In this document: positions 1,745 to 51,354 of the stretch, in pieces | Position numbering within the stretch: position 1 is the first letter of the stretch | Layout: each line of letters starts with the position of its first letter | DNA from: Isoetes taiwanensis | Taxonomy: Eukaryota > Streptophyta > Lycopodiopsida > Isoetales > Isoetaceae | Direction: 5' to 3' | Assembly (NCBI GenBank): GCA_021234155.1 | Contig: JAJEKV010000001.1 | Span: 27,421,768-27,485,767, forward strand | Length of the DNA: 64,000 nucleotides | The notes under the pieces: model-generated | Told to the model about the DNA's origin: nothing | The model's input: the letters and a program-made list of their open reading frames with translations, nothing else | The model's database searches: none | Translations under genes and position numbers: made by a program

Positions 1745-2440
1745 TACGGTCCTGTGCCTGTCGGCTACACTCTTCTGCCGACTTCTTGTTGCTAGGAGGT
1801 ACCCCCTTACTTCTTCCACCAGCTGCTGCATATCTCCTAGCATCTGCTGGGATACTTCAACCTTTGTGCCAAGTATCCGGGGTTAGGCACTGGTACCCGT
1901 AATTTACCATGAAAGGAGACATCTGAGATGACTCCTGCTTGGCACTATTGTAGGCGAATTCTACCAAGTGGATGTACTCATCCCACTTGGACTGCTTATT
2001 CCACACAAAGCTTCTAAGCATGTCTTCCAGGATTCGATTCGTGCGCTCCGTCTGACCATCTGTCTGCGGATGATAAGCTGTGCTCATGGAGAGCTTCGTC
2101 TGAATGGTGCTAAAGAGGTCCTGCCAAAAAGCACTCATAAATTTGGAATCCCCGTCTGAAATTATCTCCCGAGGCATGCCATGGAGCCTAAAAATCTCCT
2201 TTACAAATAGTTTGGCAGTATCTAATGCCGTGTCCGTAGTTCTACAAGGCACAAAATGTGCCATCTTAGATTGTCTACCATTAATGCATCCTTGCCTCGA
2301 AGAGTTTTGGGAAGTCCTGTAATAAAATCCATGCTTATGACCTCCCACTTAGCATTTGGCACCCCCAATGGCTCTAAGGCACCTGGAATTCGAAGCTGCT
2401 CCGCTTTGGTCTGCTAGCACAACTGGCATTCTCGAATATA
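1745..2440 (-). pseudogene. integrase core and C-terminal part, LTR element
   Basis: The retroviral integrase (rve) core is split by a frameshift near 2348. The three catalytic acidic residues can be seen: Asp in S-M-D-F-I-T-G-L-P (about 2330), Asp in I-I-S-D-G-D-S-K-F (about 2170) and Glu in T-D-G-Q-T-E-R-T-N-R (about 2060). After a stop at 1857 the same protein appears to go on to about 1745 with a helical stretch ending Q-K-S-V-A-D-R-H-R, typical of the region just after the core. No GPY/F module or chromodomain can be recognised before the LINE begins. A stop at 2414 separates this part from the zinc-binding segment upstream. Confidence 0.85.
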
Positions 2441-3529
2441 CCTGGCTATCTGCTTCTTCATTCCTGGCCAGAAGTAGCTACTCCGAACCTTGAAGTAGGT
2501 CTTCATGAACCCTGCACGCCCTGCTATTGGGCTGTTGTGTGTGTCATGAAGAATTATCTTCCTTATACCTAACGATTCGGGCACACACAACTTGTCCTTA
2601 TGGTACAACAAGTTGCCTTCCTTCTTATAATGCTTGAAGGCTTCTCGTTCCTTATCTGTTCTAGCCTCCCTGGAGAGACTTTCCCATATCTCCTTGAAAT
2701 CTTCATCTGACGGCAGGGTCTCCTCTATCTTCTTACCAAACTCACTCGAAAGAGTGGAAATGGCATTACAATGCGTTCTTGTCTCAAATGGTCTCCTAGA
2801 GAGAGCATCTGCCACAACATTAAGCTTGCCGGGCTTATACACTATATCAAAATCATACTCCTCAAGGAATTCCATCCACCTCCTTTGCCTTAGGTTGAGG
2901 AGTGGCTGGGTGAAAAGATACTGAAGGCTCTGGTGATCAGTATCTAACTGAAACTTCCTTCCCAGCAAATAATGCCTCCATATCCTTAACGCCCTGACAA
3001 TGGCTAGCAGCTCCTGACCATGCGTTGGGTAGCGTTGCTCTGCATCGTTCATCTTCTTGGAGTCGTAGGCGACTACCCTTCCTTCTTGCATCAAGACTGC
3101 CCCTGTTGCTATCTTACTTGCATCTGTTGCTACCAGCTTATCTTTACTCGGATCCGGGAGAACAAGCACTGGAGCTGTTGTTAAGGCCTCCTTGAGCTTC
3201 TCAAAGGAAGCTTGGACTTTCTCTAACCAATGATTAGCCCAATCCTTAATCTTCTTGGCCTTAGTGAGGTCCGACAAGGGGGGCGCCCACTTAGCAAAGT
3301 CCTTCACGAACTTTCTGTAATATCCCGCCAACCCGAGAAAGCTTCTTACTTCAGCCACATTCCTTGGAGCTTGCCAATCAACTATTGCCTCAATCTTAGA
3401 TGGATCTGTAGAAATTCCCTCGGCTGTTACCACATGCCTCAAGTATTCCACTCGACCTGTTGCAAAGTGGCACTTGGAGAGCTTCCCATATAACCGATGG
3501 CGTCTCAATTTCTCCAACACTTTCCTCAA
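2414..3529 (-). pseudogene. RT end, RNase H and integrase zinc-binding segment, LTR element
   Basis: This 371-codon open stretch begins inside the RT thumb ([15 protein letters not shown]) and runs through the connection ([11 protein letters not shown]). The RNase H domain follows, with V-A-T-D-A-S as the first catalytic Asp and L-D-T-D-H-Q-S-L near its end. Its tail has the conserved [10 protein letters not shown] and D-A-L-S-R-R motifs. The integrase HHCC region closes it: Y-F-W-P-G-M and C-Q-L-C are present, but the second zinc His of the usual S-P-I-A-G-H is Arg. The frame continues upstream without interruption to the stop at 3602. Confidence 0.9.
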
Positions 3530-4070
3530 ATGCTGACAATGATCTTCAAGGGACTTGCTGTAGACTAGAATGTCGTCGAAGAAAACAATGACAAACTCAT
3601 CCTAGAACTCTCTGAAGATGTCGTTCATGAGGCGCATAAAAGTTGCTGGAGCATTCGACAAACCAAAGGGCATTACTGTAAATTCAAAGTGACCATACCG
3701 CGTTCTAAAGGCGGTTTTATGGATATCTTCTTCTTTTATTCTTATCTGGTGGTATCCTGACCTTAAGTCGATCTTAGAGAATACCTTTGCTCCTTGGAGC
3801 TGGTCCATTAAATCATCTGCCCTTGGCAAGGCATACTTATTCTTTATTGTCTGCTTGTTGAGCTGGCGATAGTTTATGCACATTCTTAGGCTGCCATCTT
3901 TCTTCTTCACGAAGAGTATAGGTGCTCCAAAAGGAGACACACTTGCTCTAATAAAACCAAGCTCAAGCAATTCCTGGAGCTGCTTCTTGAGCTCAATCAA
4001 CTCCGGGGTGCTCATTCTGTATGGTGCCTTGCTGGTAGGCTTAGCATCTGGAACTAATGTGATCTCACAT
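3530..4070 (-). pseudogene. reverse transcriptase palm, LTR element
   Basis: The sequence encodes the RT palm of a gypsy element. Visible motifs are the conserved [12 protein letters not shown], the first catalytic Asp in [12 protein letters not shown], the block [10 protein letters not shown], and the double-Asp box as F-F-D-D-I-L. A TAG at 3602-3604 sits 8 codons before the F-F-D-D box, so the active site is split from the front of the domain. Both halves are otherwise in the same frame. The motif wording is that of plant chromoviruses, but without a chromodomain I cannot name the lineage. Confidence 0.92.
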
Positions 4071-4071
4071 T

Positions 4072-4920
4072 CTACATATAAGGTGGTAACTGCCGGATTT
4101 CATCCGGGAATACATCCTTAAATTCTGAGATGAGCCTTGCTACTGGCTTTGGCAACTGATTCTCCTTTTGGTCACTTCCATCCTGCTTATTTGGCTCAAT
4201 TGCCTCTAACCTCAAAATATAGTCCACCTTATTTCTTTCTATACTCTTCCTTAGCTGCTTCAAAGAAGTACACTGCATGGGAGAAGCTGCCTTCTTACCT
4301 TTCACTATGAATTTGGTGCCGTCCAGTGCTGTCATAGAGATCTCATTACGGTCGCAGTCGATCATCGCTTTAGCCGGCTTTAGGAATTCCATTCCGACTA
4401 TCAGGTCATACCTTCCAATTTCCATGACCTCTGCCCCCATCGGCCACTTACTTCCACTAAGGTCTATGTCGAATGTGATCCTCCTCCCCTTAGTGTGCCG
4501 AATGGCACCGTTTGCCATGCTAACTGGCCTTGGCTTAGACTTCAAGACTTTATTCTTCATTAGAGCAGCCAGGCAAAGTTGTGAGAGCTACCTGTATCTA
4601 TCAACACTAGATATGGGTTGCTATCTATGATCCCCTCAGCCGCAATGACTGTGGACTGATTTTCAATTTCATCTGACTCAATGTTTGCACAAATATGGCA
4701 CTCACCATCTATAAAATCCTGGGCCTCGTGCTGGTTGTCGTCTTCGTCCGCTTCTGTTGGTGAATCCCAATCCCCAAGCTCTGCCAAAGCTGCCTGCATG
4801 ACGAATGGGCAATCATGTGTTCGGTGCCCTGGCTGGAAGCACCTAAAACATAGCTTCTTCTCGATGCATTCCTGTCTCTTCTCCTCGCGGCAAACTGTCC
4901 AAAAGACGCTTTAGTGCACT
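4072..4920 (-). pseudogene. gag zinc knuckle and aspartic protease, LTR element
   Basis: At about 4870-4825 the minus strand encodes C-F-R-C-F-Q-P-G-H-R-T-H-D-C, a perfect CX2CX4HX4C nucleic-acid-binding knuckle. About 70 residues later comes the retropepsin active site L-I-D-T-G-S-S-H-N-F (near 4590). The flap-side region (I-V-G-M-E-F-L) follows in the next open stretch, 4560-4072. A shift or stop near 4560 splits the protease just after the active site. The order knuckle-protease-RT fits a single gag-pol polyprotein. Confidence 0.88.
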
Positions 4921-5022: not shown

Positions 5023-6075
5023 TTACTGCCCTTGGTACTGCCCTGTTGACTTCCTTTTGAAGGCCGACTGTTTCTCCCCCGGCGTTGCTGGAGCTTCTTC
5101 CAAACTTATGGCTTTATCCTCGGCTTCTGCCACTGACTTTGGGTTGATTGCTCGGACTAGCCTTTTGATGTTGTTGTTCAATCCCTCAATGTAAGTTTCA
5201 ACCGCTTGCCTTTCCGAAACTCCGGGAACATGGAGCCTGAGCCGCATGAATTCCTCTGTGTACTTTGCTACTGACAAGGTACCACGGTTCAATCTGTAGA
5301 ATTGCTGGATTTGCCTGCTAGTATGTGATCTAGGCACATAATGTCTGCGAAAGGCCTTGCTGAAGGTCTTGAATCTGCAACTGTTCCGTTTGAGCTTATT
5401 GGACTTTGCGTAGCCTTTCCACCAAATTCTAGCTGCTCCTATCAAGTTTGTTGTAGCAACCTTCCCTATATCCTTGTCCTTCATGCCATAAGAGTTGCCA
5501 AACTCCTCCATCTCGTCAAGCCAGGCTTCTGCCTCCATACCTGACCTGTCCTTCCCTGAGAATTGACCCAACTTCCTAGTCTTCCACACATTGCTCATAG
5601 CACTGTCAACTTTCTTTTGATAGTTGTCTGCCTTCCTTGCCCTGGCTCTTACCTGAGAAGTATCGGACTCACTCTCTGAGCTGGAACTGTCTTGGCTGTC
5701 CGAAGTGTCTGATGAACTGGAGCTAGGTGGTGTTGGTGTCCTTCTGTTTCTCCTTTTCCTCTTTCTGTCTCTGACATTTCCCTGATTGTCCTGCCCCTCC
5801 GGCTGTGGACCTTCTTCGATGCCTTGCTGAGGTAGTGGTGGAGGAGGTGGTGGTGCAGGTGCATATTCTTGGGCATTCATCAATGGGGTGGCCCAGTGGA
5901 TTAACTGATGCATCTGATTCCTCATCTGGACGAGCCTTGCGTTGATTGATTCCACCGTCATTTCCTCGTTGTTGTCATCTTGATCACGTCCAAATAGGTT
6001 TCTGGGTACCCACTGGTGATGTCGGCCCTGGCCTTCAGAACCTGAGTTGGTGTTCCTTGCTGCAAGGATTAATCA
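5023..6075 (-). pseudogene. gag (capsid) region, LTR element
   Basis: The 312-codon stretch starting at Met 5961 carries a retrotransposon-gag capsid domain. It contains the typical A-R-I-W-W-K-G-Y, F-K-A-F-R-R-H-Y-V-P and A-K-Y-T-E-E-F-M-R-L blocks. The N-terminal third has a proline run and an S/D-rich stretch. The frame stays open upstream of that Met to about 6075, with N-L-F-G-R-D-Q-D-D-N-N, a wording common at gag starts, so the true start may be farther up. A possible splice acceptor (TTGCAG) lies near 6063. A stop at 5023 cuts it, and the same frame then continues toward the zinc knuckle. Confidence 0.88.
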
Positions 6076-6292: not shown

Positions 6293-7814
6293 ATCGATGC
6301 CCCCTCATAGACTTGAAGAAGTTCTTGACATTCTTCAATCGTAGCCCCTTGCCGACGTTCTGCAGGATTCTTGCTGCAGATCCTCATTCTAATGCTCTTG
6401 CCATCTGTGGTGCCGGAAGTTTTGGTGCAGTCGCCGCCACTACTGACAAGTGTGCATCTCTGAGATGGCCCCTGGCGAAGTCGAGGGCATGGAGAACTAC
6501 GGATCGCTTGAAGAGGATAACATGATCTACAACATAATCTATCTTGGCATGTTGTCCGAAGCCTGAGAGTGCTATAAGTAGCGCCACCGACTCTTCTCCT
6601 CTTGGGCTGAACTCCTTATGGAAAACTATCATCTGCTCTTGACTAAGGGCCGGAAGATAGTATCTGAGTGCCTTGCCTTTCACTGCGCCCCCGGTTCCCG
6701 TACCTTTCCTCTGAGCTGCTTCGCCGAAGACATCTAATGCGATGAGATCTTCGTGATCCCTCCACATTGTTGTTGCGTTCTCCAAGTTGATGCTGCTAGA
6801 TGCTTCACGCATGCTCCTGGAGCGCACTGGTCGGCTAGAGCTTGGGCCTCTTCCCGGCTTGTACAACCTGCTTTGAATCTGCTGGAATTCTTCTTCTGGA
6901 ATGATGGGTTCCTGATGCTGATACATCTGCCTTATCTGCTGATAAGCTTGAATGTCTGACATTGTTTTCCCGGCGTAGGAGTGTCGCTCGGCTACTTCCC
7001 TTGGGATTTCTTGGTAGGAGTAGTCGATGAAGTCACTGCCCTGTTCTTGTGCAATTAGGCCTAAGAGCTCGGCGATCCTGAGACCTTCTTCTTGGCAATA
7101 AGGAAGGTTGAGGATGTCGTTTGCCAGTATGTACTCCTCGCCGTCGATGATGACTGGGGTCAGGGCCGTGATGCCAACTGGCGGTTCGAAATCTCGCCTT
7201 AGTACTTCCTGTTGCCGGGCTATACGCCTCTCCATCCTTCTTGCCTCCCTCATTTCTCAACTTGGGTTCTCCTCCCCTTGCTCTTCATAATCCTGCTCAA
7301 TCTGCAACATAGGTGTTCCCGACGTGGAGCCGTAGAATTCGTACTCCGCAGTCTCGATCTCGTGGATATCTATCTGCTGCCCCCGAGTGTCGAGAGGTGC
7401 CAAATCTAAAGGTTGAATTGACGGCTCCCCTGGTTGGTTGACTGCCTTGTACTGCATGAACAAAGCTAGGGCTGCTTGGGCTGAAAGGTATCTATGCCTA
7501 TGGTGCTTGCAAGTCATGTAGTCTGGCATGTTTCTGGTCCTATCCCACAGCCTACTCTTGCCCCTGGCTCCTCCCCCTACGACTTGGGTAAGCAAATCTA
7601 GGGATACCCATTTCCCTCCCCTAGGTGGCAAGCTAATTTCCCAGGGTAGGATCTGCTGGTCATACTGGCAAATGATATCAGTGTAATAGGGGGTTCTAGT
7701 CAATGTTGCATGAAGGTCAAAGAGATGATCGAAGACATGGAAGGCTTGGTCAGCAGGAAAATCACGGATGTGATTGGCAGCATCATATCATCTGACAAAG
7801 TTTGAGGGCGCCAT
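6293..7814 (-). pseudogene. second extra gene of the LTR element, unknown protein of about 500 residues
   Basis: One frame can be read from ATG 7814 (M-A-P-S-N-F-V-R) to a final stop near 6293, broken by three in-frame stops at 7788, 7257 and 6384; without them it would be about 505 residues. I recognise no family. Near residue 60-110 there is a compact block (K-W-V-S-L-D-L-L-T-Q-V-V-G-G, then R-L-W-D-R-T-R-N-M-P-D-Y, then C-K-H-H-R-H-R-Y-L) that could be a small nucleic-acid-binding domain; that is a guess. A charged helix rich in Arg/Glu follows the 7257 stop, then an acidic Gln-rich part and a hydrophobic C-terminal region. It lies between the H3-like gene and gag on the same strand. A TATAAAAG box 110 bases upstream suggests its own transcript. 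Confidence 0.6.
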
Positions 7815-8085: not shown

Positions 8086-8405
8086 GTCAAACTTGGCGAA
8101 AATGGGCAAAACCGGGTTGGTGCGCGCCAAACGCCTCTGCGTCGCGAACGCAGGTGGCTTCGGCGCGGTCCAACCCGATTTCGGGGATTTTTGGCTCAGA
8201 TTTGAATTTCTGGAAGTTTGGAGATGCTAATATGGCTATTTGGCATGATTCTAATCTAACTAGAAACTTTCCGCATGCAAAATGGACATCAAATGGCGCC
8301 AGATCGGCGAAATCGGGTTGGTGCGCGCCAAACACGTCTGTGTCGCGGACGCAGGTGGCTCCGGCGCGGTCCGACCCGATTTCGGGAATTTGGCTTGGGT
8401 TCAAA
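8086..8405. repeat. two ~105-bp direct repeats with E2F-like cores
   Basis: Segments at about 8095-8195 and 8295-8400 are about 85-90 percent alike by eye. Both hold GGGTTGGTGCGCGCCAAAC and GCGGTCC-ACCCGATTTCGGG. On the minus strand each gives TTTGGCGCGC, which fits the E2F consensus TTTSSCGC. They lie 170-480 bases upstream of the second extra gene's TATA box and downstream of the H3-like gene. No coding frame is convincing here. A regulatory role is inferred only from the site match and position. Confidence 0.55.
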
Positions 8406-8605: not shown

Positions 8606-9735
8606 TCAAGGGTACTCCTTGCGGATCCTCCGCGCCAAGTGGAGATCCTTGGGCATCACGGTCACCCTCTTGGCGTGGATTGCACACAAGTTCCCTTCTT
8701 CAAAAAGCTGGGTGAGCTCCGCCTCGGCTGCCACCTGCAGGACCCGTGTCGTCAACGATGTCACCCTATAGTCGGTGACGAACTCCTGCATAGCTTCCCG
8801 CATCAAGCGCTCAAAGGGAGCCTTCCTGATTAGGAGATTAGTGCACTGGTGGAAGTGCTAATCTCCCGAAAAACACGGGCGTGCCGAGAATTAGGCCCAT
8901 GGTGGGCCTTTTTGGGCTTCTCAGGACGTGGAGGTGGCGGCTTGGGCTGATTTTTCTTCGGCCGGCCGCCTTCAACATACCGCTCCACGTTCCGCCGGCA
9001 GTACCAGTCATTATACCTCGTCCAACGACGGAGGTATTCCTGGTATGCTTTGAGGCGGCGTCTGAAAAGGCGCTCCTCTCGCAACGCGAACGGTCGCTCG
9101 CCCACCTTCTGCTTTTTCACCACCTTTGGTGGCTTGGGCCACTTGGGGTAAGGTGGTCTTGCGTTGGGGTCTGAGGATTCCCCAACGACCTCGTTCTCTT
9201 TCTCCTCCACTTCCTCCTCATCGTTGCCTCCTCCTTCTTCTTCCTCCTCATGCGGGGGAGGCTCCTTGATCCTGACGGTCCCTCGGGGCCTATCATTCCT
9301 GTTCTTCGTCCTCCGCTCCTTCTCAAGCAGCTCCCTCTCTCTCTTCTTTCGTGCTGCCCTGTCCTCCGGCCACTCTGCAACCTTGTTCTTGCCCTTCTTC
9401 TTTGCTGCCGAAGGACCCGCCTCCTGGGTCTGCTGCTGTTCCTGGTTCTCCTCCTGTTCTTCGTCTTGGTGCTCCACCTCTGTGTCAGACGAGGGCCCAA
9501 AATGGCGAAACTCGTCGGTTTGCTGCGTGCCCGCCGACGAAGAGCTGCTGCTGCTATCGGGGCCCTCCTCCTGGGAGATGTGGAAGGTATCATCACTGGA
9601 GGAGAACACCTCTTCGCCCGGCTTCGGTCGAAGGTGTGGCGGAATCTTCTTGACATGGCGACCTGCTGCTACGTGTGCCATCGAGAGTGTAGGCCTCTCC
9701 CCAAACTTCCTAGCTGTCTGCTTGGTGCGTGCCAT
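8606..9735 (-). pseudogene. histone H3-like gene carried by the LTR element (one frameshift)
   Basis: The protein starts M-A-R-T-K-Q-T-A-R-K, identical to the first ten codons of histone H3, including K4 and K9; the next residue is F, not S10. Residues about 25-42 (G-R-H-V-K-K-I-P-P-H-L-R-P-K-P-G) recall the H3 stretch G-G-V-K-K-P-H-R-F-R-P-G. Then come more than 200 residues absent from H3: an S/D/E-rich acidic part, K/R-E helices, and a Pro-Lys-rich part. The histone fold resumes at R-V-F-R-E-I (about 8865) and, after a frameshift at 8826-8850, continues as A-P-F-E-R-L-M-R-E to [11 protein letters not shown] and A-R-R-I-R, ending at 8606. From R-E-A to N-L-C the spacing equals canonical H3, so loop 1 is not lengthened as in CenH3. 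The break lies in a near-duplicate CTAATCTC/CTAATC, which suggests slippage. A TATA-like box lies about 90 bases upstream. Confidence 0.88.
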
Positions 9736-9823
9736 ACTTAACGGTCTAGAAAATGGGTGACGTAAGGCTGAGCAAGAGAGATATGGTGGAGGAAAGAGTT
9801 TGGGAGGGAAATGAGGTGGCAGA

Positions 9824-9833
9824 TATTTAAAAA
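9824..9833 (-). promoter_or_regulatory. TATA-like box of the H3-like gene
   Basis: The minus strand reads CCTTTTTAAATATCTGCC, with the AT core about 90 bases before the ATG at 9735. A C/T-rich leader follows. An ACGTCA hexamer, a motif known from plant histone gene promoters, occurs at 9758-9763 on the minus strand, but downstream of the TATA box, so its meaning is doubtful. Confidence 0.45.
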
Positions 9834-9839
9834 GGAGGG

Positions 9840-10301
9840 TCCTTGGGAATATTCTCCTACCATTAATAGGCCTACTTATTAGCCCCCCTTATTAATTACA
9901 CCAATGTACCCTAATTATTAGTACATATTTAATTATTGGTATCCATACTTAATTTCGTATTATACCTTAAAATTTTTAAATTTCCTAATAGTTTGAAGTA
10001 TTAATTATGGATTTGCGCCATTTTTCACTCAGGTCTCAGATTGGCATAATTCTTCGACCCATTTTAGGTGAAATTTGATGCAGATGCATAATTTTCACTT
10101 CAATTTTACTAGAAGGTGAATTTGACTCATTCATTTCTTCGTCTAACACTTAACCTATTTTCAGACCCACTACCTAGGAGAAAAAATTTTCCCCTATTTT
10201 CGAGGTTCGATGGTGAAAATTTTTATTTCACACCCCTATAGGCCTGTTAGACTACTTTCATGGTTATGGTCAGTGCTAGTTCCTGGTCAACCAAGAACAT
10301 C
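9840..10301 (-). other. leader between primer site and H3-like gene
   Basis: AT-rich sequence with no convincing open frame. It lies directly after the primer-binding site and would be the untranslated leader of the full-length element RNA plus the upstream region of the H3-like gene. Confidence 0.4.
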
Positions 10302-10313
10302 GCTCTGATACCA
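10302..10313 (-). promoter_or_regulatory. primer-binding site, initiator-Met tRNA
   Basis: The minus strand reads TGGTATCAGAGC, complementary to the 3' end of plant initiator methionine tRNA. It starts one base after the CA end of the LTR, the usual place for the minus-strand primer. This fixes the element's direction and marks sequence to the left as internal. Confidence 0.9.
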
Positions 10314-10314
10314 T

Positions 10315-11962
10315 TGTGACGCTCCCTGCTAAATATACGGCACCCGACCGTACACTCGGTCGGCAGGAAATTCCCCATCCGGTCCTTCAACCGCACGGGC
10401 CCTCCGTCTATCCCGCACTCTGAGATGATCGTAGTGCGGGAAGGGGACACGAAGGTGTCTTGCGTGCCCTTTCCCTATGGGGTCCTATCACAGCGGAAGC
10501 ACAAACATCGTCAGAACTAGCAATACAAAGCAACATACTACCTCGAAGGGTAGCTCAACCACATATCCATAGGTGCAAAGAACATAATCATATGCCATAA
10601 AACAGGAGAGCTCCTACCCAGGGCTCCGACACATAGGGGAGTCGACTGACTGGATAGGCCTCAGGATAGAGCAGACCGAGTCATAACAATGGCGGGGCTG
10701 GCATAAGACAATGGCTAGGGTTGACCACTCCATCCGCCCCTCCTGTGCATACTTTGCAGATGGGCTAGATCAGGCTCTGGCATGACTCTAACCTTCCGGA
10801 TACGCAATCCCATGGCATCACCCATCAGGACTACTCCAGGTTGCATCTCCCTGGTCCGTTGAGGTAGGTAGGGTTGCATCTCCCCTTCCCGGGGTCTAGA
10901 GGCTCCACGGGCGGCTAGAGAATCGTGGCGACACACGATTCGTACCCGACTGAACCCCCCAAAAACAAGAGCCAAGCTGACACTTGCAACTCTTGAGAGG
11001 CAGGGCGACACCATCGCCCCAGGAAGTGTCGGACCCATGCCCGGCCCACATGAGGTGACCGACCATAAGCCTAGCCCACTATGGGATCCCCCGAAGCCCC
11101 CACTCGGCAGGGATCCTCCCTCCATCTTGCCTCTAGCCCCGTTATGTAGTGCTGAGTCACATCATAGCTTCCATAGCCCGGTGGGTTCCTATGCACAGGC
11201 CGCAACTAATAGAAACTAAGGGATCTACACTAGGGGCATACTACACATGGTCCTAGGTCTCTACCCCCCTTTCCAATACAAGAGGAGCAAACATGATCAA
11301 CCATCATCACCTACATCACATCATGATCATTATCATATGAACATCTTAACCTAATCATACATATCTAACTAACAGTTAGGGTTCCTTGATTAGGGTTCAA
11401 GATGTTCAACAAAGGTTCTAGGGTGGCTCTACTCTAGACACGAAATACTAACCCATCTGGAGTGCTAACTTCCAGATGAACTAACATGAACTCTACTCAA
11501 CCTACCTCCTCCAGAAGTGCTTCCTCCCATCCCTGGCGTTTCCATGCTCCTTGATGTGGGTCGAAGGCTTGCTCCCTCTACGATCATACACACCTTCCAG
11601 GGGCTGCTGCTCCAGGCTAGACTATGACGAACGATGCTCGAAACGGGGTTTCGGGCACGTAGATGAGAGTTCAGGTGCTAGGTCAGGGAAAAGGGTCTAG
11701 GGTTAGGGTTAGAGCCAATATAGGTGTGGGTCCACATGGGATGCCACGTGGCACCACTAAGATGAGGCCGTGTGGCGGTTGCCCAATAGGATAAGACCAT
11801 GTGGAAATGGGCCTTATCCTAAGGTTATCTAAGTTAAACAATTAACTTAGATGTGCACCCCTTGCCACTTTCTAAGGCATACAAGGCTACCTAGGTAGAC
11901 TTGTATGGTGACGGGTCCAGGAATATACGTATTTATAGCGTATATTCCCCTGGAACGTCACA
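10315..11962 (-). repeat. 5' LTR of the gene-carrying retrotransposon (1648 bp)
   Basis: Both ends are the inverted TGTGACG/CGTCACA with TG...CA termini. On the minus strand it begins TGTGACGTTCCAGG at 11962 and ends GGGAGCGTCACA at 10315, next to the primer site. The interior is GC-richer than its surroundings and has no real open frame. It is closely related to the fragment at 11963-13196. Without the 3' LTR the insertion cannot be dated here. Confidence 0.88.
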
Positions 11963-13196
11963 ACTACCCTGGGCTCAGACTCCAAGGGATCAACTGACGG
12001 CCAGGGTCTCAAGATATGAACAGACGGAGATATAACATGGCGTTGGCTGGCATAAGACAATGGCTAGGGTTGTCCACTCCATCCGCCCCTCCTGTGCACA
12101 CTTTGCAGATAGGCTGAATCATGCTATGACGTGCTTGTAGCCCTCCAGAGACGCAATCCCAAGGAATCACCCTTCGGAACTACTCCGGGTTACATCTCCC
12201 CGGTCCGATGAGGCAGGTCAGAGAGGCGTCTCCTCCCCGAGTATGACGGATCCCTGGGTGTGCTAGAGAACACGTGCCCCCTCAGTGACCCCCGCATCCG
12301 TACCCGACTTACTCTCCTAAATCTAAAGGTCAGCTCACCAACCCGTTCGAGCCCAGGACGGTCACATATGACTCACGCCCTCCGGCTCAGGGAGTGTCAG
12401 ACCCATACCCGGCCCACACACGGTGACCGGCTATAAGCCTAGCACACTGTAGGAGTCTTGTAGCCGCGCTAGGCAAGACCCCACCCCCGATTCACCCTCA
12501 TACTCGTTGTCTGGTGCTGAACCACATCATAGCATCCACAGCCAGGTAGGCTCTTGTGCACAGGCCGCAGTTATTGGGTATTAAGGGATCTAGCTAGAGA
12601 CATCTCTAATTCCTAGGAAGCTTTTAGGTCTCTACCCTGCCCTTAATTCCCAATACATGGGGGAAGCAGAAAGAACTAATGTAACTACCATTCATGTATT
12701 CAGCACAATTCATAAAGAGAATTTAACCATTCCATCTACTCAAAGAAGTGTTAGCATAAAAGAAACCTATCTATTGACTAACCAGTGTCCTGGCTGGACC
12801 CATGGTCACGGTAGGAATCCATATCTCGAAACTGGTAGGTAGGTGTTGGCAAAACAAGCTTAGGCTACTGGCTGCTGCTCCTCCTTAGTCCCAATTCGAA
12901 TTTGGGAGAGGAAATGGGGTAGGACCCCTATTCCTAGGCCCAAAATGGTAAGTCCCCTCTGGCCAATCGATTTGGGTCAGGTGGCACTCCCTTATTGGTG
13001 ATAATTAGTTAATTAACCCATAATGGCTTAATTAGGTAAATTAGGCCATTATAATTTATAATTATCCATTTGGGATTTATTAGCATAGCTAAATAAAACC
13101 ATTATGGTCGACCCTCACTTGGACCATTAGGCCCATTGTGTCGTGGTGATGTGTCCTGGTGTGCATACATATACCGTATATGCCTGGAACGTCACA
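11963..13196 (-). repeat. older related LTR, truncated by the 5' LTR insertion
   Basis: This fragment starts on the minus strand at 13196 with TGTGACGTTCCAGGC and matches the neighbouring LTR over most of its length, for example TGGCATAAGACAATGGCTAG and CTCCATCCGCCCCTCCTG. It stops where the younger LTR begins, about 330 bases before its own expected end. The simplest reading is that the gene-carrying element inserted into an older solo or partial LTR of the same family. Confidence 0.8.
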
Positions 13197-13495
13197 ATTT
13201 CTCATTAGGGTTTTCCTCGGAAACCCAAAAGTGTGGGGTTTTTCATCCCGATGAGAAGTTGTCGCCACTACCCTTCTATACTGCCTATGTACACTTTCTT
13301 TTTTATGGGGTAGCTCGACATTGTTCCTATGGTCAGCTCCCCATCAATATTATTCAAACATTGTATACTGCTGTTGTGATGAATAACAAGCCTATCTATC
13401 GGCCGATTTTTGTGTTCCTTGCGAGTCCCTTACTAGAATAAGATTACATGTTTCAAGAATGGATTGTCAGGTAAGAAATGGTGGCATAGATCTAA
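13197..13495. other. spacer between old LTR and LINE copy 2
   Basis: A plus-strand frame stays open to 13441, but its protein resembles nothing I know and it starts inside the LTR. I see no supported gene here. Confidence 0.3.
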
Positions 13496-13496
13496 G

Positions 13497-15125
13497 AATG
13501 AGAATGAGAATGAGAATGATATTTTATCGTCCACTGAGGCCAATCGGCCTATGGGACCCATAAGAAGCGCAGCAAACTTATTACTGTCCGGGTTAAAAAA
13601 CCCCCGCCCCGAAGGGTTTTCGAGGGAAAAACCGTGGCAGTAATAAGAATACTGTCAAACTGTACAAGTATACATCAATGTATATATACATGTCAAGTGT
13701 GTGCCCGAGGACATAGCTGATCTCGCATGTCCATAACCTCCTGAAGGTATGATCCCAGCACCCGTACGGATGCTGTGCTCAATGTCACATGTAACGGCTG
13801 GCCAGGCCTGACCAACTCAGCATAGCACGTCCGAATTTGATCATATGCTGGGCAACTTTGAAGGGTATGAGATTCATCCTCAATGACTCCCATTTGGCAG
13901 CATTGACAAAGCCTGTCCTGGCGTGGCTCACCAATCCATCTGCCCGTCTCAATTCGAAGATGATGTGTCCCTGTGCGAATGGAGGCAATGCGTTTGCGCC
14001 TTTTCATGGGCAAGTGAGTACGCAGGTAGCATTGCGGGCCTCGTTCCAATGTGGGATTTATGTGGCACTGGTAGTGTGCTGTCTTGACATGTTCAAGGGC
14101 ATTGGCATCCCAAAGCTTGCTGAGGAAGCAAGCGTCAAGATATTGCCTCAAGCTATGGCGGTCTGCCTCTGCTTGCACCTGTATGCACCTGTGCTCCTGC
14201 ACATTCCATCTAGCCATCCATTGAGCTCTCTTTTCCCTCCAGCAGGCCTTGAGGCGCTGCGGCCCCATTGCCATGATATAAGCTAGTTTAGGGAGACGAG
14301 CATCGTCCATATTGACCACCTTCTGAAAATAGACAATGTGGCAATCAAGGGCCGCCCTCAAGAGGCAAGAATCCCGCTCCTCTGCGGTAGAATTTGATAT
14401 GGGACGGTGGACTTCACCCCTAGTGCTCGTACTAAGAAGGCTTTCTGGACCTGCTCCAAGTCATTCCAAGTAGCAAGTGATACTACTGGACCCCATACTT
14501 CCACCCCGTATAAAAGGACAGGCTCTACTAAGACCTTGAACAGGTGTGACTGATGGGCCCAATCATACAACTCCACTCTATGACTATTGTTTTGCATTGC
14601 ATATAGTGCCTTCCAGTCTGCCGTCACTCGTAGCCGTATGGATGTGTCCCAGTGCATAGTAGAAGGAAACTCCACTCCCAAATACTTGTATGTGGATGCC
14701 ACTTCCACATTCTGGCCTTGGTAACTGAAGGAGGGGACCCTCGGCTGACGTGAAGATGATATGAAAACCACCTTAGTCTTGGCCAGGTTGACGCGCATAT
14801 CAGTCGCGTGGCAGAATGTGTCCAGGGCATCGAGATGTCGTTGCATGTCTGCTGGTGTGTAAGCTAGGAGGTCTACATCATCAGCATATATTAACTGTCT
14901 GATGATCTGATAGAGAAGGTGAGCTCCATCGCCCCCATTATCAGCAAGCCAGCTCTCCAATTGATCAATGTAAAGCCCAAACAATGTTGGGGAGAGAGGG
15001 CATCCCTGACGAACCCCGATACTACTATCAAATGGTTGGCTTGTCTCACACGAACTGACCCGAGCATCTTTCATATAGCACAGACACCGCGCATTCTCGC
15101 AAATCTCTACAGGAACCCCCAAATT
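13497..15125 (-). mobile_element. LINE retrotransposon copy 2, 5'-truncated (RT, zinc finger, 3' UTR, hexamer tail)
   Basis: It begins within the RT domain. The 255-codon stretch 15122-14358 has G-V-R-Q-G-C-P-L-S-P-T-L-F, then L-I-Y-A-D-D-V-D-L-L, the catalytic YADD, then L-A-K-T-K and Y-L-G-V-E-F. A single-base shift near 14360 leads into 14361-13693, which ends with a zinc-binding motif C-Q-C-C followed by H-T-L-Q-S-C (Cx2Cx9Hx4C), as in many plant LINE proteins. The 3' UTR contains AAAAAACCCCCGCCCCGAAGG and ends CGATAAAATAT before a (CATTCT)n tail at 13497-13525. Copy 3 has the same UTR and end, which fixes the element's 3' border. Only one shift is seen in about 475 codons, so this is the best-preserved of the three copies. 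Confidence 0.9.
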
Positions 15126-16835
15126 GCGGTTGATATAAGTCTTAGATCAGCTCAATGCATTCGTTTAGCATACACCCTATCCCTAAAACAATTAAATGAG
15201 TTGTTATAATAAAAAGAGGGGGCTTGAACTAGTAAAAACTAGCGCAAACATCAGCATTGGTCAATCCCTTTGCTGTCTTAACTGGCATACGAGAACTATT
15301 AAAAGTCCAGGATGGTACCATTCTTTCTTGGTATCCAACTACAAAAATCTTTACTGCTATTACAATAAGTCTCAATCAGAACAGTTAAATATCCTTGAAA
15401 CAAATGATCAATGGAGTTTATGCCAAATAAATTCATTGGGAGCATTAAAGAACTATTAAACCTTTACCTTAGATGGATAGGAACCATATAATATTTTCAT
15501 GGCTTTTACAGGTCTGGAAATTCTGTGTTGTAGAATGAGCCAAAATGAAGAGTGACTTAAGATTTCTGATCATAAACAAACCCAACATTGACCATTATAA
15601 TGATAAAACAATAACGCATCAAAGCATCATGTTTAAGAGTCTGCAATATTATCCGTGTCATAGCCTTTAGATTTCAGGTCTTAAATGATAACTGGAATGC
15701 ATTTCATAGCAGAATTAAAGATGCACACAACCCAAATGTTGCTGGTGCTACATGAAAACTCCACACATCACTTTAGCAAATAAGAGACAAGAATGACACA
15801 CCTAAGCATTTCACCGTCCTCAGAAGTGCCAGAATCACCCGGATTCCTCAGATGAGGTATTTGATGCAATCTAGAATTTGCTCATCATGGATCATACTGA
15901 TATTCATATTTTTACCCATAGATAAGGTAGGGTCCCCTTCGTTGATGCACTTAATAGAAACTCAATCCAAATAATTTGTACAAACAACAAGCAATTGCTT
16001 GGATTTCACTTTTAAAATGTGCCTAGCATGTAACACATCAATCAATAATATTAAGTTTCAGGGCCAAAGACATCTTACAACTATTTTTGCAAAGCAGCCT
16101 TGAATTGGGGCACGGGGAGGGGGGGGGGGGATGGATCTTACCACCATAATGGTGATGCATGTCACCATATGGAGCACTTTACCATGGTGCAGGAAACCCC
16201 CCTAATGGTGCACTGTGTAACTGTGATTGGTGCGCTTTTTAGCTTCAATTGGAGACATCTGGATCTCTTCTTAGTGCATTGCAATACCTGTAATGGTGCA
16301 TCTAATGACCTTTAATAGTTCAGTCTGTTCAATAGTTTGGTACACCAAATTACCATAGAAGTAATCTTTAAGTTTAAATAAATATCAAACAACCGTTACA
16401 CAGATTCATTACACGATTGATATAATTCAGCATTGAAGGAGTTGAACCTCCAATTAACCTTCATTTAAAGGTTAACTATCCCAAATTACTGGCCTGCAAA
16501 ACAGATAGCTCTTGTTACTTTATGAAGTTTGTTCTACATCAAATGATAGTTGAACAGAAAAGAACTCCATATAAATCTCGCTTACAGCTAAACTAAAAAG
16601 ATGAGAGGACAAATTTTACTTTTACACCAAAGTTATTTTTACAATAAAATAGCCAAACATAACACAACCATATAGTGGAAAAAAAGACAAAGTTTCATTG
16701 ATTTGACAAGTCATATCATATTCAATGATTTCAGATGTGCAAGGGCTTCTGCCCTGTATATGTCATCCAGACATTCCTATTCTGAGAGGTTTCAGATTCT
16801 CCTTGAGAGTCGGTGTGATCCATAGAGTAGATATT
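15126..16835. other. intergenic, no supported gene
   Basis: AT-rich sequence with short, unconvincing frames. A run of 11 G occurs near 16118-16130. ATGGTGCA-like words recur at 16140-16310. I see no gene. Confidence 0.5.
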
Positions 16836-32225: not shown

Positions 32226-34314
32226 GGGACATCAAAATACAATTACATATTACATCAAAAGCAAACATATTACATTGAAACAAGGGACATCAAAATACAA
32301 TTGAGCATGGAATTGAGTTTCTTATATTATTCCCAAACAAGGCAAGACACAACAACATATATTCAAAATTTCTGAATCATTTCCTAACCTGTAAGAATGT
32401 GTTCAACAATGAACTTAGGATCTCAGCTGACGTCATACTGTAGCTCCATAAAAAACTATTCTTTATCAGACATGCTATCTTCATCAGATAAAACCTCGGG
32501 CAAGTTTTCTAGAATCTTTTCCTCATCTCGAGCACCTTTCTTGATCTCCTGCATGGGAACTCGAATAGCACAAATTTGAGTAGAGAATACAAGTGACTTT
32601 GGCTCGTTTGTGCACAACTCATACATCATCTTTGACCGAGGCTTCTTTCTATAGTAAATGCCCTCCACAATGGTTTCACCTCTCACAAACCAGTTTCCGT
32701 TCTGCTTGAAGTCATTTTCAACTTCAAATTTTGGCTTGTTGCATAGCAACATCCAAAATACAGAATCCTCCTCATTTCCTTTAGGTGTAGCAACAGCAAA
32801 GTTATCTTCTTCTCTGAGTGCTTCTGCAAGTACATTTGCCAAGGTTGAGTCTGGTAGACTTGCGGGTCTCTTCCACATCTGCATGAACATTGGAGGATGG
32901 TTCAACGACTACAAGGTTCCATTCATCTACATACAATTTGTTCTCACACATGTCCCATTTTCCATCCAAACAATTGCTGCAAAAACATGATAGCTTTCTG
33001 GTATGTAGCTGTGTTGGATTTCCTGTGCTGAATCCATGGACTGGATGAATTTGCCTGGTTTCCTGTTGATATCCTCAGGTTTTATTTCCCAAAAGTATCT
33101 CTGAACTTTTCTTCCATTTTCAGTCCACTCAGATGTACCACATTGAAATTGTTTCTCTGCAATTTTCACCACATCATGGGCATTATCTAGTTTAATGTCA
33201 GGATGTTTAAGCTGTAGACCTCGTATCCATCTTTTCAATTCTGCTGCCTTCCCATCATGTTCACCTTTTCCATGGTTTGATCCAAAGAAGTTCCACATCA
33301 TGTTGACCTCTGTATCACAACCGTACCTTCCAACAAAATAAAATGGTCTGGATGCTTTGAATTGTGATGCAACACCATCTGAAAATACATAGTGTTGTTT
33401 GGGGACATTGCCTTTCTGCTTTAAGTACTCAAAATGTTTCATAAAACAATGTTGAACAAAAAGTGTGTCATGTTCCCTATCATCTGACACATAGTAGTGT
33501 GTTTCCTTCTCAATGGTGTCTGTCCGTGGATCAACCTGATAGGTTATTTGAACAAATATAGTTATCTGGTTGTTGACCCAGCGCATGGACTGAACTTTAT
33601 TCTGCTCCTTAAAAGTATAATTCTCTGCAAAGTCAACCACGGATAGGTAAGCATCTCCAGGCACGTTATCAAGGAGTTCTTTGTACTGGCCTGCCTCCAC
33701 TTATATCTGAAGTTGTGTAAAGGAAATTTTGGAAGCTTCTCCAACATTTTGTTCACCAGTGGAAGACTTGCAGTTTCATTGTGTTGGTGAACGAGCTTAG
33801 ACTTCTTACTGCCATCTCTGAATTCAGCTTTTTCATAGTCTAGGTATTCCCACTTCACCATGCCACTATCACTAGATTGTTCATGTGGGCAGATAGGGAA
33901 CTTCTTAATCCCACACTCTTCACACTCACCCAGAATGCATTCCTTCTTATGGTAAGGTTGGAAGCTAGATTTCTCACATAAAATTCCCTACCACAGACTT
34001 CTTGTGCTACTTATTTTGTATTCAGACGCCCTGCATTCACCATATATGTCTGACCTGCAAAGTTGACAAGTGCAGCTGCAGCTTTTTGGGTGCTTAGTTC
34101 TCATACTATTGAAGCCATCTATTAGCATCTGCATTCTAACATGGTATATACAACAGCAACTATTGAAGTCCTTTAATTTTACAACAAACCATGGTTTCAG
34201 CTTTTCAAACATCCTCTGTTTGATCATAACACTAGGATGTTCCGTCTTGAATTTCCTGAACAATTGCAACTGCAAGGAAGATAACAAAGGTGATCAGCAT
34301 ATTACATAATTTAT

Positions 34315-34965
34315 TGTACACTACATTTTCCACCACACTAGGCACCACATAGCATATATTACAGCATTTATTTACACCACGTTATTCACCACACAGCATA
34401 TATTACAGACATTCATCTTACACCTCGTTATTCACCACACTAGGCACCACAAAGCATATATTATATAATTTATTGTACACCATATTTTTCACCACACGAG
34501 GCACCACATAGCATAAATTACAGCATTTATTTTACACCATGTTATTCACCACACTAGGCACCACAAAGCATATATTATATAATTTATTGTACACCATATT
34601 TTTCACCACACTAGGCACCACATAGCATATATTACAGCATTTATTTTACACCATGTTATTCACCACACTAGGCACCACAAAGCATATATTTACAGCATTT
34701 ATTTTACACCATATTTTTCACCACACTAGGCACCACATAGCATATATTACAGCATGTATTTTACATCATGTTATTCACCACACTAGGCACCACAAAGTAT
34801 ATATTTACAGCATTTGTTTTACACCACGTGCCTCATCACACTAGGCACTACATATCATATATCACAGCATTAATAGGCACCACATACCACAAGCAATCAC
34901 TAACCACACCAACCACATATCACAAGCAATCACTAACCACATACCACATTAACAATAAAAAATGT
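34315..34965. repeat. ~57-bp tandem satellite of CACCACACTAGGCACC units in an intron
   Basis: About ten copies of a unit with CACCACACTAGGCACCACA, then AGCATATATTACAGCATTTA and TTTACACCATGTTATT fill an intron of the preceding gene. Copies alternate between two subtypes (ATAGCATA and AAAGCATA), so a dimer of about 115 bases may be the real repeat. The right end decays into CACATACCACA words. Confidence 0.85.
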
Positions 34966-49377: not shown

Positions 49378-49382
49378 AATGC
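49378..49382. repeat. left 5-bp target-site duplication of the TRIM cluster
   Basis: AATGC before the first LTR. The same five bases follow the last LTR at 51355-51359. Five bases is typical for LTR retrotransposon integrase. Confidence 0.75.
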
Positions 49383-51354
49383 TGTAACGGGCCCATGGTA
49401 GACTGCTCGAGTATTCGAACGTTGAATGTGCCTGTGGGGCGTTCCCGAGGCATCGGCATAAATGGGTAGAAGCGACTACTCATAAATATCTAGCGGTTTT
49501 GCCCAGTTGGTTAAGGGCATGTCGGTTAGGAATGTTACAGTTGGTATCAGAGCAGGTCTCGAGTTCGAGTCTCCATGGGTGCCTATATGCATGGGTAATT
49601 TGCAAAGACTTGGTAATCATTGTGACATGGTATACTAGTGGCGTAGACCGTGAACGGGCCCATGGTAGACCGCCGAGTATTCGAACCTTGAATGTGCCCG
49701 TAGGGCGTTCTCGAGACACCGCATAAATGGGTAGAAGCGACTACTCATAAACGTCTAGACGGTTTTGCCCAGTTGGTTAAGGGCATGTCGGTTAGGAACG
49801 TTATAGTTGGTATCAGAGCAGGTCTCGAGTTCGAGTCTCATGGTAATTTGCAAAGACTTGGTAATCATTGTGACATGGTACATAGACATGGTATAATCGA
49901 GCCTTGAATGTGCCTCGTATGCCCCCGGAGACACCGCATAAAATGGGTAGAAGCGACTACTCATAAACGCCTCTTGAATGTGCCCCTCGTATGCCCCGGT
50001 GACACCGCATAAATGGGTAGAAGCGACTACTCATAAACGTCTAGACGATTTTGCCCAGTTGGTTAAGGCATGTCGATTAGGAACGTTATAGTTGGTATCA
50101 GAGCAGGTCTCGAGTTCGAGTCTCATGGGTGCCTATATGCATGGGTAATTTGCAAAGACTTGGTAATCATTGTGACATGGTACATAGACATGGTATAACC
50201 TTGGATGCTCGAGGACGAGCATAGTTCTAGTGGGAGAGACTATAACGTTCCTAACTGACATGCCCTTAACCAACTGGGCAAAACCGTCTAGACGTTTATG
50301 AGTAGTCGCTTCTACCCATTTATGCCTCTCTCGAACGCCCCACAGCACATTCAAGGTTCGAATACTGGAGGTCTACCATGGGCCCAAGCATCTCTCCCAC
50401 TAGAACTATGCTCGGCAAAAACTGTCTAGACATTTATGAGTAGTCGCTTCTACCCATTTATGCGGTGTCTCGAACGCATACAGGCACATTCAAGGTTCGA
50501 ATACTCGGCGGTCTACCATGGGCCCGTTCTGATCTCTCCCACTAGAACTATGCTCGGCAAAACCGTCTAGACATTTATGAGTAGTCGCTTCTACCCATTT
50601 ATGCGGTGTCTCGAACGCTTACGAGGCACATTCAAGGTTCGAATACTGGCGATCTACCATGGGCCCGTTCTGGTCTCTCCCACTAGAACTATGCTCGTCT
50701 TCGAGCATCCAAGGCTATACCATGTCTATGTCATACCATGTCACAATGATTACCAAGTCTTTGCAAATTGCCCATGCATATAGGCACCCATGGAGACTCG
50801 AACTCGAAACCTGCTCTGATACCAACTGTAACATCCCTAACCGACATGCAACAGGCCCATGGTAGACACTCGAGTATTCGAACCTTAAATGTGCCTGTGG
50901 GGCGTTCCCGACATCGGCATAAATGGGTAGAAGCGACTACTCATAAGCGTCTAGACGGTTTTGCCCAGTTGGTTAAGGGCATGTCGGTTAGGAACGTTGC
51001 AGTTGGTATCAGAGCAGGTCTCGAGTTCGAGTCTCCAAGGGTGCCTATATGCAATTATGCATGGGTAATTTGCAAAGACTTGGTAATCATTGTGACATGG
51101 TACATAGACATGGTATAACCTTGGATGCTCGAGGACGAGCATAGTTCTAGTGGGAGAGACTGTAACGGGCCCATGGTAGACCGCTCGAGTATTCGAACCT
51201 TGAATGGGCCCATAGACCGCTCGAGTATTCGAACCTTGAATGTGCCTGTGGGGCGTTCCCGAGACATCGGCATAAATGGGTAGAAGCGACTACTCATAAA
51301 CGTCTAGACGGTTTTGCCCAGTTGGTTAAGGGCATGTCTGTTAGGAACGTTACA
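49383..51354. mobile_element. rearranged cluster of a TRIM (miniature LTR retrotransposon)
   Basis: LTRs of about 155 bases, TGTAACGGGCCC to AACGTTACA, occur directly at 49383-49539, 49651-49805, about 49900-50090, 50850-51001 and 51161-51354, and inverted at 50241-50387, about 50410-50525, about 50560-50665 and 50825-50848. A Met-tRNA primer site TGGTATCAGAGC follows the LTRs two bases on, at 49542, 49808, 50093 and 51004 (plus) and 50813-50824 (minus). A purine tract AGTGGGAGAGAC precedes LTRs at 50229 and 51149. Internal sequence is about 150 bases and codes for nothing. The last LTR has a 38-base internal duplication. The whole is bounded by one 5-bp duplication. Confidence 0.85.

Follow-up and report, generated by a model that had tools for sequence, protein, structure and literature searches.

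Retrotransposon silencing acts through histone H3 marks. In Isoetes taiwanensis (Lycopodiopsida), an LTR retrotransposon lies beside or around a reading frame that begins like histone H3, which raises the question of whether this element has a histone of its own and what such a protein could do for it. We examined this locus in a stretch of 64,000 nucleotides (GCA_021234155.1, contig JAJEKV010000001.1, positions 27,421,768 to 27,485,767 of the forward strand), hereafter the window. If an LTR lineage preserves its own H3, it would be countering silencing directly at the nucleosome level.

Structure of the element in the window

A preliminary description made from the sequence had proposed a single gene with an exact H3 beginning, a long charged insert and a C-terminal H3 fold, placed on the coding strand of an LTR element between the primer-binding site (PBS) and gag. 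The features recognized in the window are the following.

10315..11962, minus strand: 5' LTR of about 1648 bp, with ends TGTGACG...CGTCACA (sequence reading and LTR DNA search)
10302..10313, minus strand: PBS TGGTATCAGAGC, which we take to be of the plant initiator-Met tRNA type (sequence reading; placement in other copies)
9736..10301, minus strand: leader from the PBS to the H3-like gene, with upstream ATGs (ATG and indel counts)
9735-8606, minus strand: whole H3-like gene, as two open pieces in different frames
8830..9735, minus strand: first open piece of the H3-like gene, 301 aa and stop, with the MARTKQTARK tail, the charged spacer and the start of alpha-N
9706..9735, minus strand: H3 tail MARTKQTARK (ORF reading; K4 in 29/30, R8 in 30/30 and K9 in 29/30 copies)
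8606..8857, minus strand: second open piece of the H3-like gene, the H3 histone fold, 83 aa and stop (PF00125, 7e-25; solved H3 chains, 1.4e-26)
7257..7787, minus strand: first piece of ORFX, without Pfam match (dN/dS 0.111 in 14 copies; kin to a family B ORF, E 2e-6)
6384..7256, minus strand: second piece of ORFX, without Pfam match above the cut-off (dN/dS 0.137 in 16 copies; kin to a family B ORF, E 5e-12)
5023..6072, minus strand: gag, Ty3-type capsid (PF03732, 1.6e-16; PF19259, 1.2e-15)
4072..4587, minus strand: aspartyl protease region (PF08284, 0.0053, below the cut-off; 45% to family B gag-pol)
3602..4099, minus strand: reverse transcriptase (RT), N part (PF00078, 7.2e-23)
2414..3601, minus strand: RT C part, RNase H and integrase zinc domain (PF17917, 8.5e-34; PF17921, 6.6e-14)
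1857..2348, minus strand: integrase core, then LINE-like sequence (PF00665, 4.5e-05, below the cut-off; 81% over 69 residues to the family B integrase)

The order gag, protease, RT, RNase H and integrase is that of Ty3/Gypsy elements, with the Pfam matches of the protease and the integrase core below the cut-off. The minus-strand ORF from 9735 begins MARTKQTARKFGERP, identical to H3 through K9 and followed by F at position 10, and the H3 fold ends at 8609, before a stop at 8606-8608 (Pfam Histone and solved H3 chains, as listed). The proposed beginning, insert and fold were thereby all recovered, with 246 residues of spacer from the tail end (RPKPG) to the alpha-N region in copy L012. The reading as one gene from tail to fold holds in some other copies but fails in the window, where the tail frame ends with a stop at 8830-8832, and the open frame of the fold, a different one, begins only at 8857; since tail and fold lie in different frames, the window gene is broken. 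The placement on the coding strand between PBS and gag was also correct, although a further ORF before gag (7787-6384) had been overlooked. Twelve upstream ATGs precede the H3 start and could hinder translation. Predicted structures of two window pieces had low confidence (mean pLDDT 59.9 and 54.7), too poor for a structure search.

A genome search with the LTR scored 40 of 7501 candidate places, with 89-100% identity and most starting at base 11962. The window element's own 3' LTR is absent among these 40, the nearest being on the opposite strand, so these places offer no pair by which to date this copy. LTR pairs with TG..CA ends were found around copies of the same family (family A) on contigs C908 and C1028. 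Beyond the element, a second LTR-like stretch (11964-13199) directly adjoins its LTR, and the part at 11964-12608 has 76% identity to an LTR region of a related family (B, see below) and is possibly a solo LTR. RT fragments, presumably LINE-type, occur at 1-1850, 13500-15150 and 58800-60700, partly matching each other, the first adjoining the cut end of the element. Repeat arrays are present at 34296-34871 and 49380-51350, pieces of the latter recurring at the edge of the family B locus L039, and a direct repeat of 89 bases (8102-8190 and 8303-8391, 89% identical) lies in the interval from the H3 gene to ORFX.

Other copies of the gene

A genome search with the H3-like gene scored 131 places at E <= 1.9e-112, the window included, among 10,505 first-look candidates; so many places at this level in one genome exclude a chance match, and these copy numbers are lower bounds. 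We read 30 copies, namely the window, the 20 best protein matches to it, a choice that favours low dN, and nine from the end of the list of 131 (hereafter lower-ranked copies). The match to the window runs from the LTR through the gene in 18 of the 20 best-matching copies (not in L009 and L016) and further into ORFX or gag in 18 (not in L016 and L021). In 19 of 21 copies the PBS precedes the start position by 561-692 bp, in one of them with a single mismatch.

The same arrangement is seen when starting from the other end of the element. From 105 scored places in a search with RT-integrase (33,883 candidates), ten loci were read, at ranks 3-8 and 10-13, ranks 2 and 9 being omitted because the gene had already been found there. 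All ten have A-type H3 sequence at the predicted place, although in L063 only the first part of the gene falls inside the stretch fetched, and in L059 and L065 the identity to copy L012 is only 41% and 33%. The preliminary description had suggested asking whether intact copies have the gene at this position, and had named its absence from every other copy as the sign of a chance neighbour. Other copies do have it there, in 19/21 copies by the upstream PBS and in 10/10 from the RT-integrase side. A host H3-like gene that happens to stand beside an element is thus rejected, and we give this reading practically no credence: the same order is repeated on many contigs, between LTR pairs, and in every RT-picked locus.

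Up to the fold, 28 of 30 copies have a gene length divisible by three; the window copy and L017 do not. By a strict count, 11/30 copies are uninterrupted to the end of the fold, one of them (L011) without ATG. In L018 (positions 1-1184), a second A-type element piece, with HAKRV, stands directly before the LTR part, which suggests tandem or nested insertions.

Selection on the gene

Ratios of dN to dS were obtained by the Nei-Gojobori method with gap-touching codons masked. For the whole gene and the fold, they were 0.123 and 0.061 in 21 copies, 0.139 and 0.066 in the nine lower-ranked copies, and 0.131 and 0.063 in all 30 (codon bootstrap for the fold 0.040-0.089). Residues 2-10 gave 0.096 (0.030-0.197) in the 30 copies, so that the copy-to-copy comparison suggested earlier revealed purifying selection on tail and fold alike. 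The bootstrap interval of residues 11-27 was 0.099-0.558; by point estimate the first ten residues are tighter than this next stretch, with overlapping intervals. The RT-picked sample showed weaker constraint than the earlier samples (fold 0.102, residues 2-10 0.102, whole gene 0.179) in seven of the ten loci, L059, L063 and L065 being excluded as not alignable from the start. Other genes of the same copies have similar values, 0.111-0.137 in ORFX and gag, 0.109 in the protease (5 copies) and 0.097 in RT (4 copies).

We also separated changes shared by at least two copies from singletons. In the 21 copies, shared changes are synonymous much more frequently than singletons are, with per-site ratios (shared vs singleton) of 0.07 vs 0.52 in the fold, 0.04 vs 2.45 in residues 2-10 and 0.17 vs 0.56 in the whole gene. 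In the nine lower-ranked copies singletons are constrained too (whole gene 0.32, vs 0.26 for shared changes), as expected if these are older lineages. Relative to L012, 49 of 50 indels in the gene are multiples of three, compared with 6 of 78 in the leader (17 copies, excluding L009, L016 and the window). Taken together, these data show that the H3-like gene is an integral part of the element and is maintained by selection.

The alternative of a passenger, a captured H3 fragment without function, was considered since the capture of host sequences by plant LTR elements (maize Bs1 and others) is well documented in the text of PMC13317346, many of the copies are decayed, and the dN of the gene is close to the divergence of the leader. 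In 17 copies (excluding L009, L016, L018 and the window), the gene has a median dS of 0.82 and a dN of 0.10, while leader and LTR diverge by 0.10 and 0.11. With the leader as a neutral clock, dN would look neutral. We do not read it so, because dN and dS are measured on one set of codons and therefore share one history, the reading frame is preserved, 36% of the synonymous differences are transversions, which is not CpG decay alone, and dS is also high in gag and ORFX (0.44-0.61). A leader and LTR divergence close to gene dN makes the leader unfit as a clock, and its low value would fit better with exchange or constraint of LTR and leader. Neutral evolution is rejected by the dN/dS of 0.06-0.18, the in-frame indels and the presence of the gene in two diverged families, and we regard a functionless passenger as very improbable. 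As an observation apart, synonymous divergence of the gene is about eight times that of the adjoining leader and LTR in these 17 copies, for which modular exchange or constraint is possible.

The LTR pairs flanking the two family A copies on C908 and C1028 differ by K2P of 0.015 and 0.025, indicating that these copies moved recently in evolutionary terms. Mean dS between gene copies ranges from 0.76 (21 copies) to 1.30 (lower-ranked copies), thus the gene seems to have been kept far longer than any single insertion.

A sister family and the origin of the gene

A search with canonical H3 scored 150 places of 9,022 candidates, 15 of host type (96-98%) and 135 others (71-86%), many of the latter in open frames of 400 or more. 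Nine of the 135 were read and all belong to one family, B; six have 409-420 residues from M to stop, having been chosen for long open frames, which favours intact copies, and three are decayed. In one copy read in context (L039), an LTR related to that of A and an identical PBS are followed by the H3 ORF, by ORFs resembling ORFX and by gag-pol; RT was not found in this gag-pol. The PBS lies 745-786 bp upstream in the three copies with sufficient sequence, three others being too short. Families A and B share 49% identity in gag, 81% in integrase and 22-24% in ORFX. The family B ORFs between the H3 gene and gag (L039, 4996-7037) are without Pfam match above the cut-off.

For the H3 domain of family B, dN/dS is 0.036 across the six copies, and the identity to host H3 is 88%, compared with 62% in A. 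A tail end of ARTKQTARK type is absent from B, and the N-termini of A and B have weak, uneven similarity, with 2 to 447 of 2000 shuffles equally good; in a profile comparison only the fold aligned. F54 and P135 are common to both families against the host. L124 occurs in B and, within A, in 15/21 copies, 3/9 lower-ranked and 0/7 RT-picked ones, and is not general in A. The H3 tree that had been proposed to date the capture joined A (copies from the top-ranked 20 only) and B in one branch apart from 10 other H3 sequences, with moderate support (84), but gives no date. Since B has a host-like H3 fold at the same place, the simplest reading of these comparisons is that the gene was probably captured once from a host H3, before the families split.

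No protein relatives outside this genome were found for the first part of the A protein (1470 candidates) or for residues 1-300 of B (3539 candidates), in a database that includes plant proteins. With the H3 part of B as query, host-type H3 gene models of other eukaryotes are among the best 120 of 5867 matches. One host-type H3 ORF of this genome, at L058, has K for R in the PHRYRPG motif.

Tail and fold residues and the possible role of the protein

Family A has the histone fold, but not the canonical tail ARTKQTARKS joined directly to alpha-N; instead it keeps ARTKQT(A/Y)RK followed by the long spacer. In the 30 copies, K4 is present in 29, T6 and R8 in all and K9 in 29 (one gap), and position 7 is A in 22 and Y in 7. 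Position 10 is F in 17 copies, Y in 4, T in 4, A in 2, P in 2 and a gap in one; serine occurs in none, in agreement with the loss of Ser10 noted at the beginning. K9 is also present in six of the seven aligned RT-picked loci, with R in L066. Within the fold, K56 is replaced by Q in 21/21 copies and by Q (6) or M (3) in the lower-ranked ones, K79 by V in 21/21 and by R, Q, W or V in all nine lower-ranked ones, and F84 is gone. These losses could result in weaker nucleosomes. Residues taken as contacts of DNA or of the other H3 are retained in family A above the rest (21/25 vs 34/64, p 0.008, in a typed fold string), which favours a fold used as a histone. We take a longer loop 1 and the loss of Q68 to be the marks of CENH3. 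Neither family combines these marks: the loop-1 insertion is in neither, and the second feature is mixed, with Q68 in B and E68 in A.

We consider it rather probable that this chromodomain-bearing Ty3/Gypsy (chromovirus) lineage encodes an H3 variant which is kept by selection, pairs with H4 and has its effect on chromatin. That a large element family preserves its own H3 suggests action on chromatin with a stolen histone, a role we infer from sequence comparisons. Marking of new copies, recruitment of K4/K9 readers and escape from silencing, as put forward in the preliminary description, are conceivable roles. The H3-like ORF would be translated from element RNA, its fold would pair with host H4 and take the normal H3 chaperone route, and a variant with a long charged arm would enter chromatin or pre-deposition complexes, where it may alter marking, silencing or integration at element copies. 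The ARTKQT(A/Y)RK end of family A would keep the K4/K9 surface without Ser10, K56 being Q or M in the copies read. As a more tentative extension, which we see as possible and still doubtful, the element H3 would be deposited with host H4 at element copies, presenting K4 and K9 on a tail that lacks the Ser10 switch, K56 being changed to Q/M, so that new copies would start silencing-resistant; the two families would then have diverged, A keeping the tail end and B a near-canonical fold with another N-terminal domain.

The H3 mimic could instead be a soluble decoy that never enters nucleosomes. It would occupy either the enzymes and proteins that write and read K4/K9 or the H3 chaperones, and thereby blunt the silencing of the element. 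The preserved tail end in A, its link to the fold broken by a charged spacer of 246 residues, and the divergence at K56, K79 and F84 agree with it. However, a tail decoy has no need of a histone fold, the interfaces of the A fold are retained above background (for the residues taken as contacts), and B combines the absence of the tail end with a near-canonical fold under strong constraint (dN/dS 0.036). We therefore consider a decoy unlikely.

The integrase of L045, the one element read to its end, is followed by a chromodomain (PF00385, 5.8e-08, above the cut-off), which was seen in that element and not in the window copy, which is cut. The aromatic cage of chromodomains consists of Y24, W45 and Y48, as given in PMC3350952. 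By-eye alignment places L, within KWKHLP of L045, at the position of HP1 Y48, unlike a Group I chromodomain (H3K9me reader). With this aromatic missing, the sequence does not support a simple loop with the integrase as reader of K9 on the element's own H3. This bears on another reading, in which the fold, with or without host H4, would be part of the particle or integration complex, either condensing the element cDNA or acting with the integrase chromodomain to tether the pre-integration complex to chromatin. The position upstream of gag in two families and the chromodomain in the lineage speak for it, but with L for Y48 the chromodomain may not read H3K9 methylation; we judge this reading quite improbable.

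Returning to the reading of an H3 variant acting on chromatin, the element would represent a natural experiment that shows what a parasite requires of H3 and what it can lose, and the more than 100 scored places in each of two families provide internal replicates.

Comparison with known elements and histones

The Isoetes element resembles plant chromoviruses in its LTR, Met-type PBS, gag, protease, RT-RNase H-integrase and chromodomain (the last in one element), and differs in having two extra genes before gag, one an H3 variant. Chromodomain elements of the lycophyte Selaginella are described in PMC3350952, whose passages on them mention no H3-type gene. Captured-gene LTR elements of the Bs1 type likewise carry host sequence (PMC13317346), whereas in Isoetes purifying selection acts on the gene in two families; the main text of that source does not contain the word histone. 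Within the titles and abstract beginnings of open PMC papers, with subscription papers and most preprints outside this set, we found no earlier report of a retrotransposon-encoded histone H3, and its novelty is provisional given this scope.

Compared with canonical plant H3, the element proteins share the histone fold, the first ten residues (A) and 88% fold identity (B). They differ in the 246-residue spacer and the absence of K56 and K79 in A, the other N-terminal domain in B, the missing Ser10, and in being encoded by a mobile element. A search of IMG/VR, with the B query only, gave one unrelated histone doublet (L040), which we take to be of giant-virus-like type. It is also a parasite-borne histone, an H4-H3-like doublet, but it is only 38% identical, has another architecture, and gag and RT are absent from its 4 kb. 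Viral mimics of histone tails, such as that of HDV as treated in PMC6972770, similarly engage chromatin factors through a histone-like motif, whereas in Isoetes the tail is accompanied by a complete histone fold and appears to be derived from H3.
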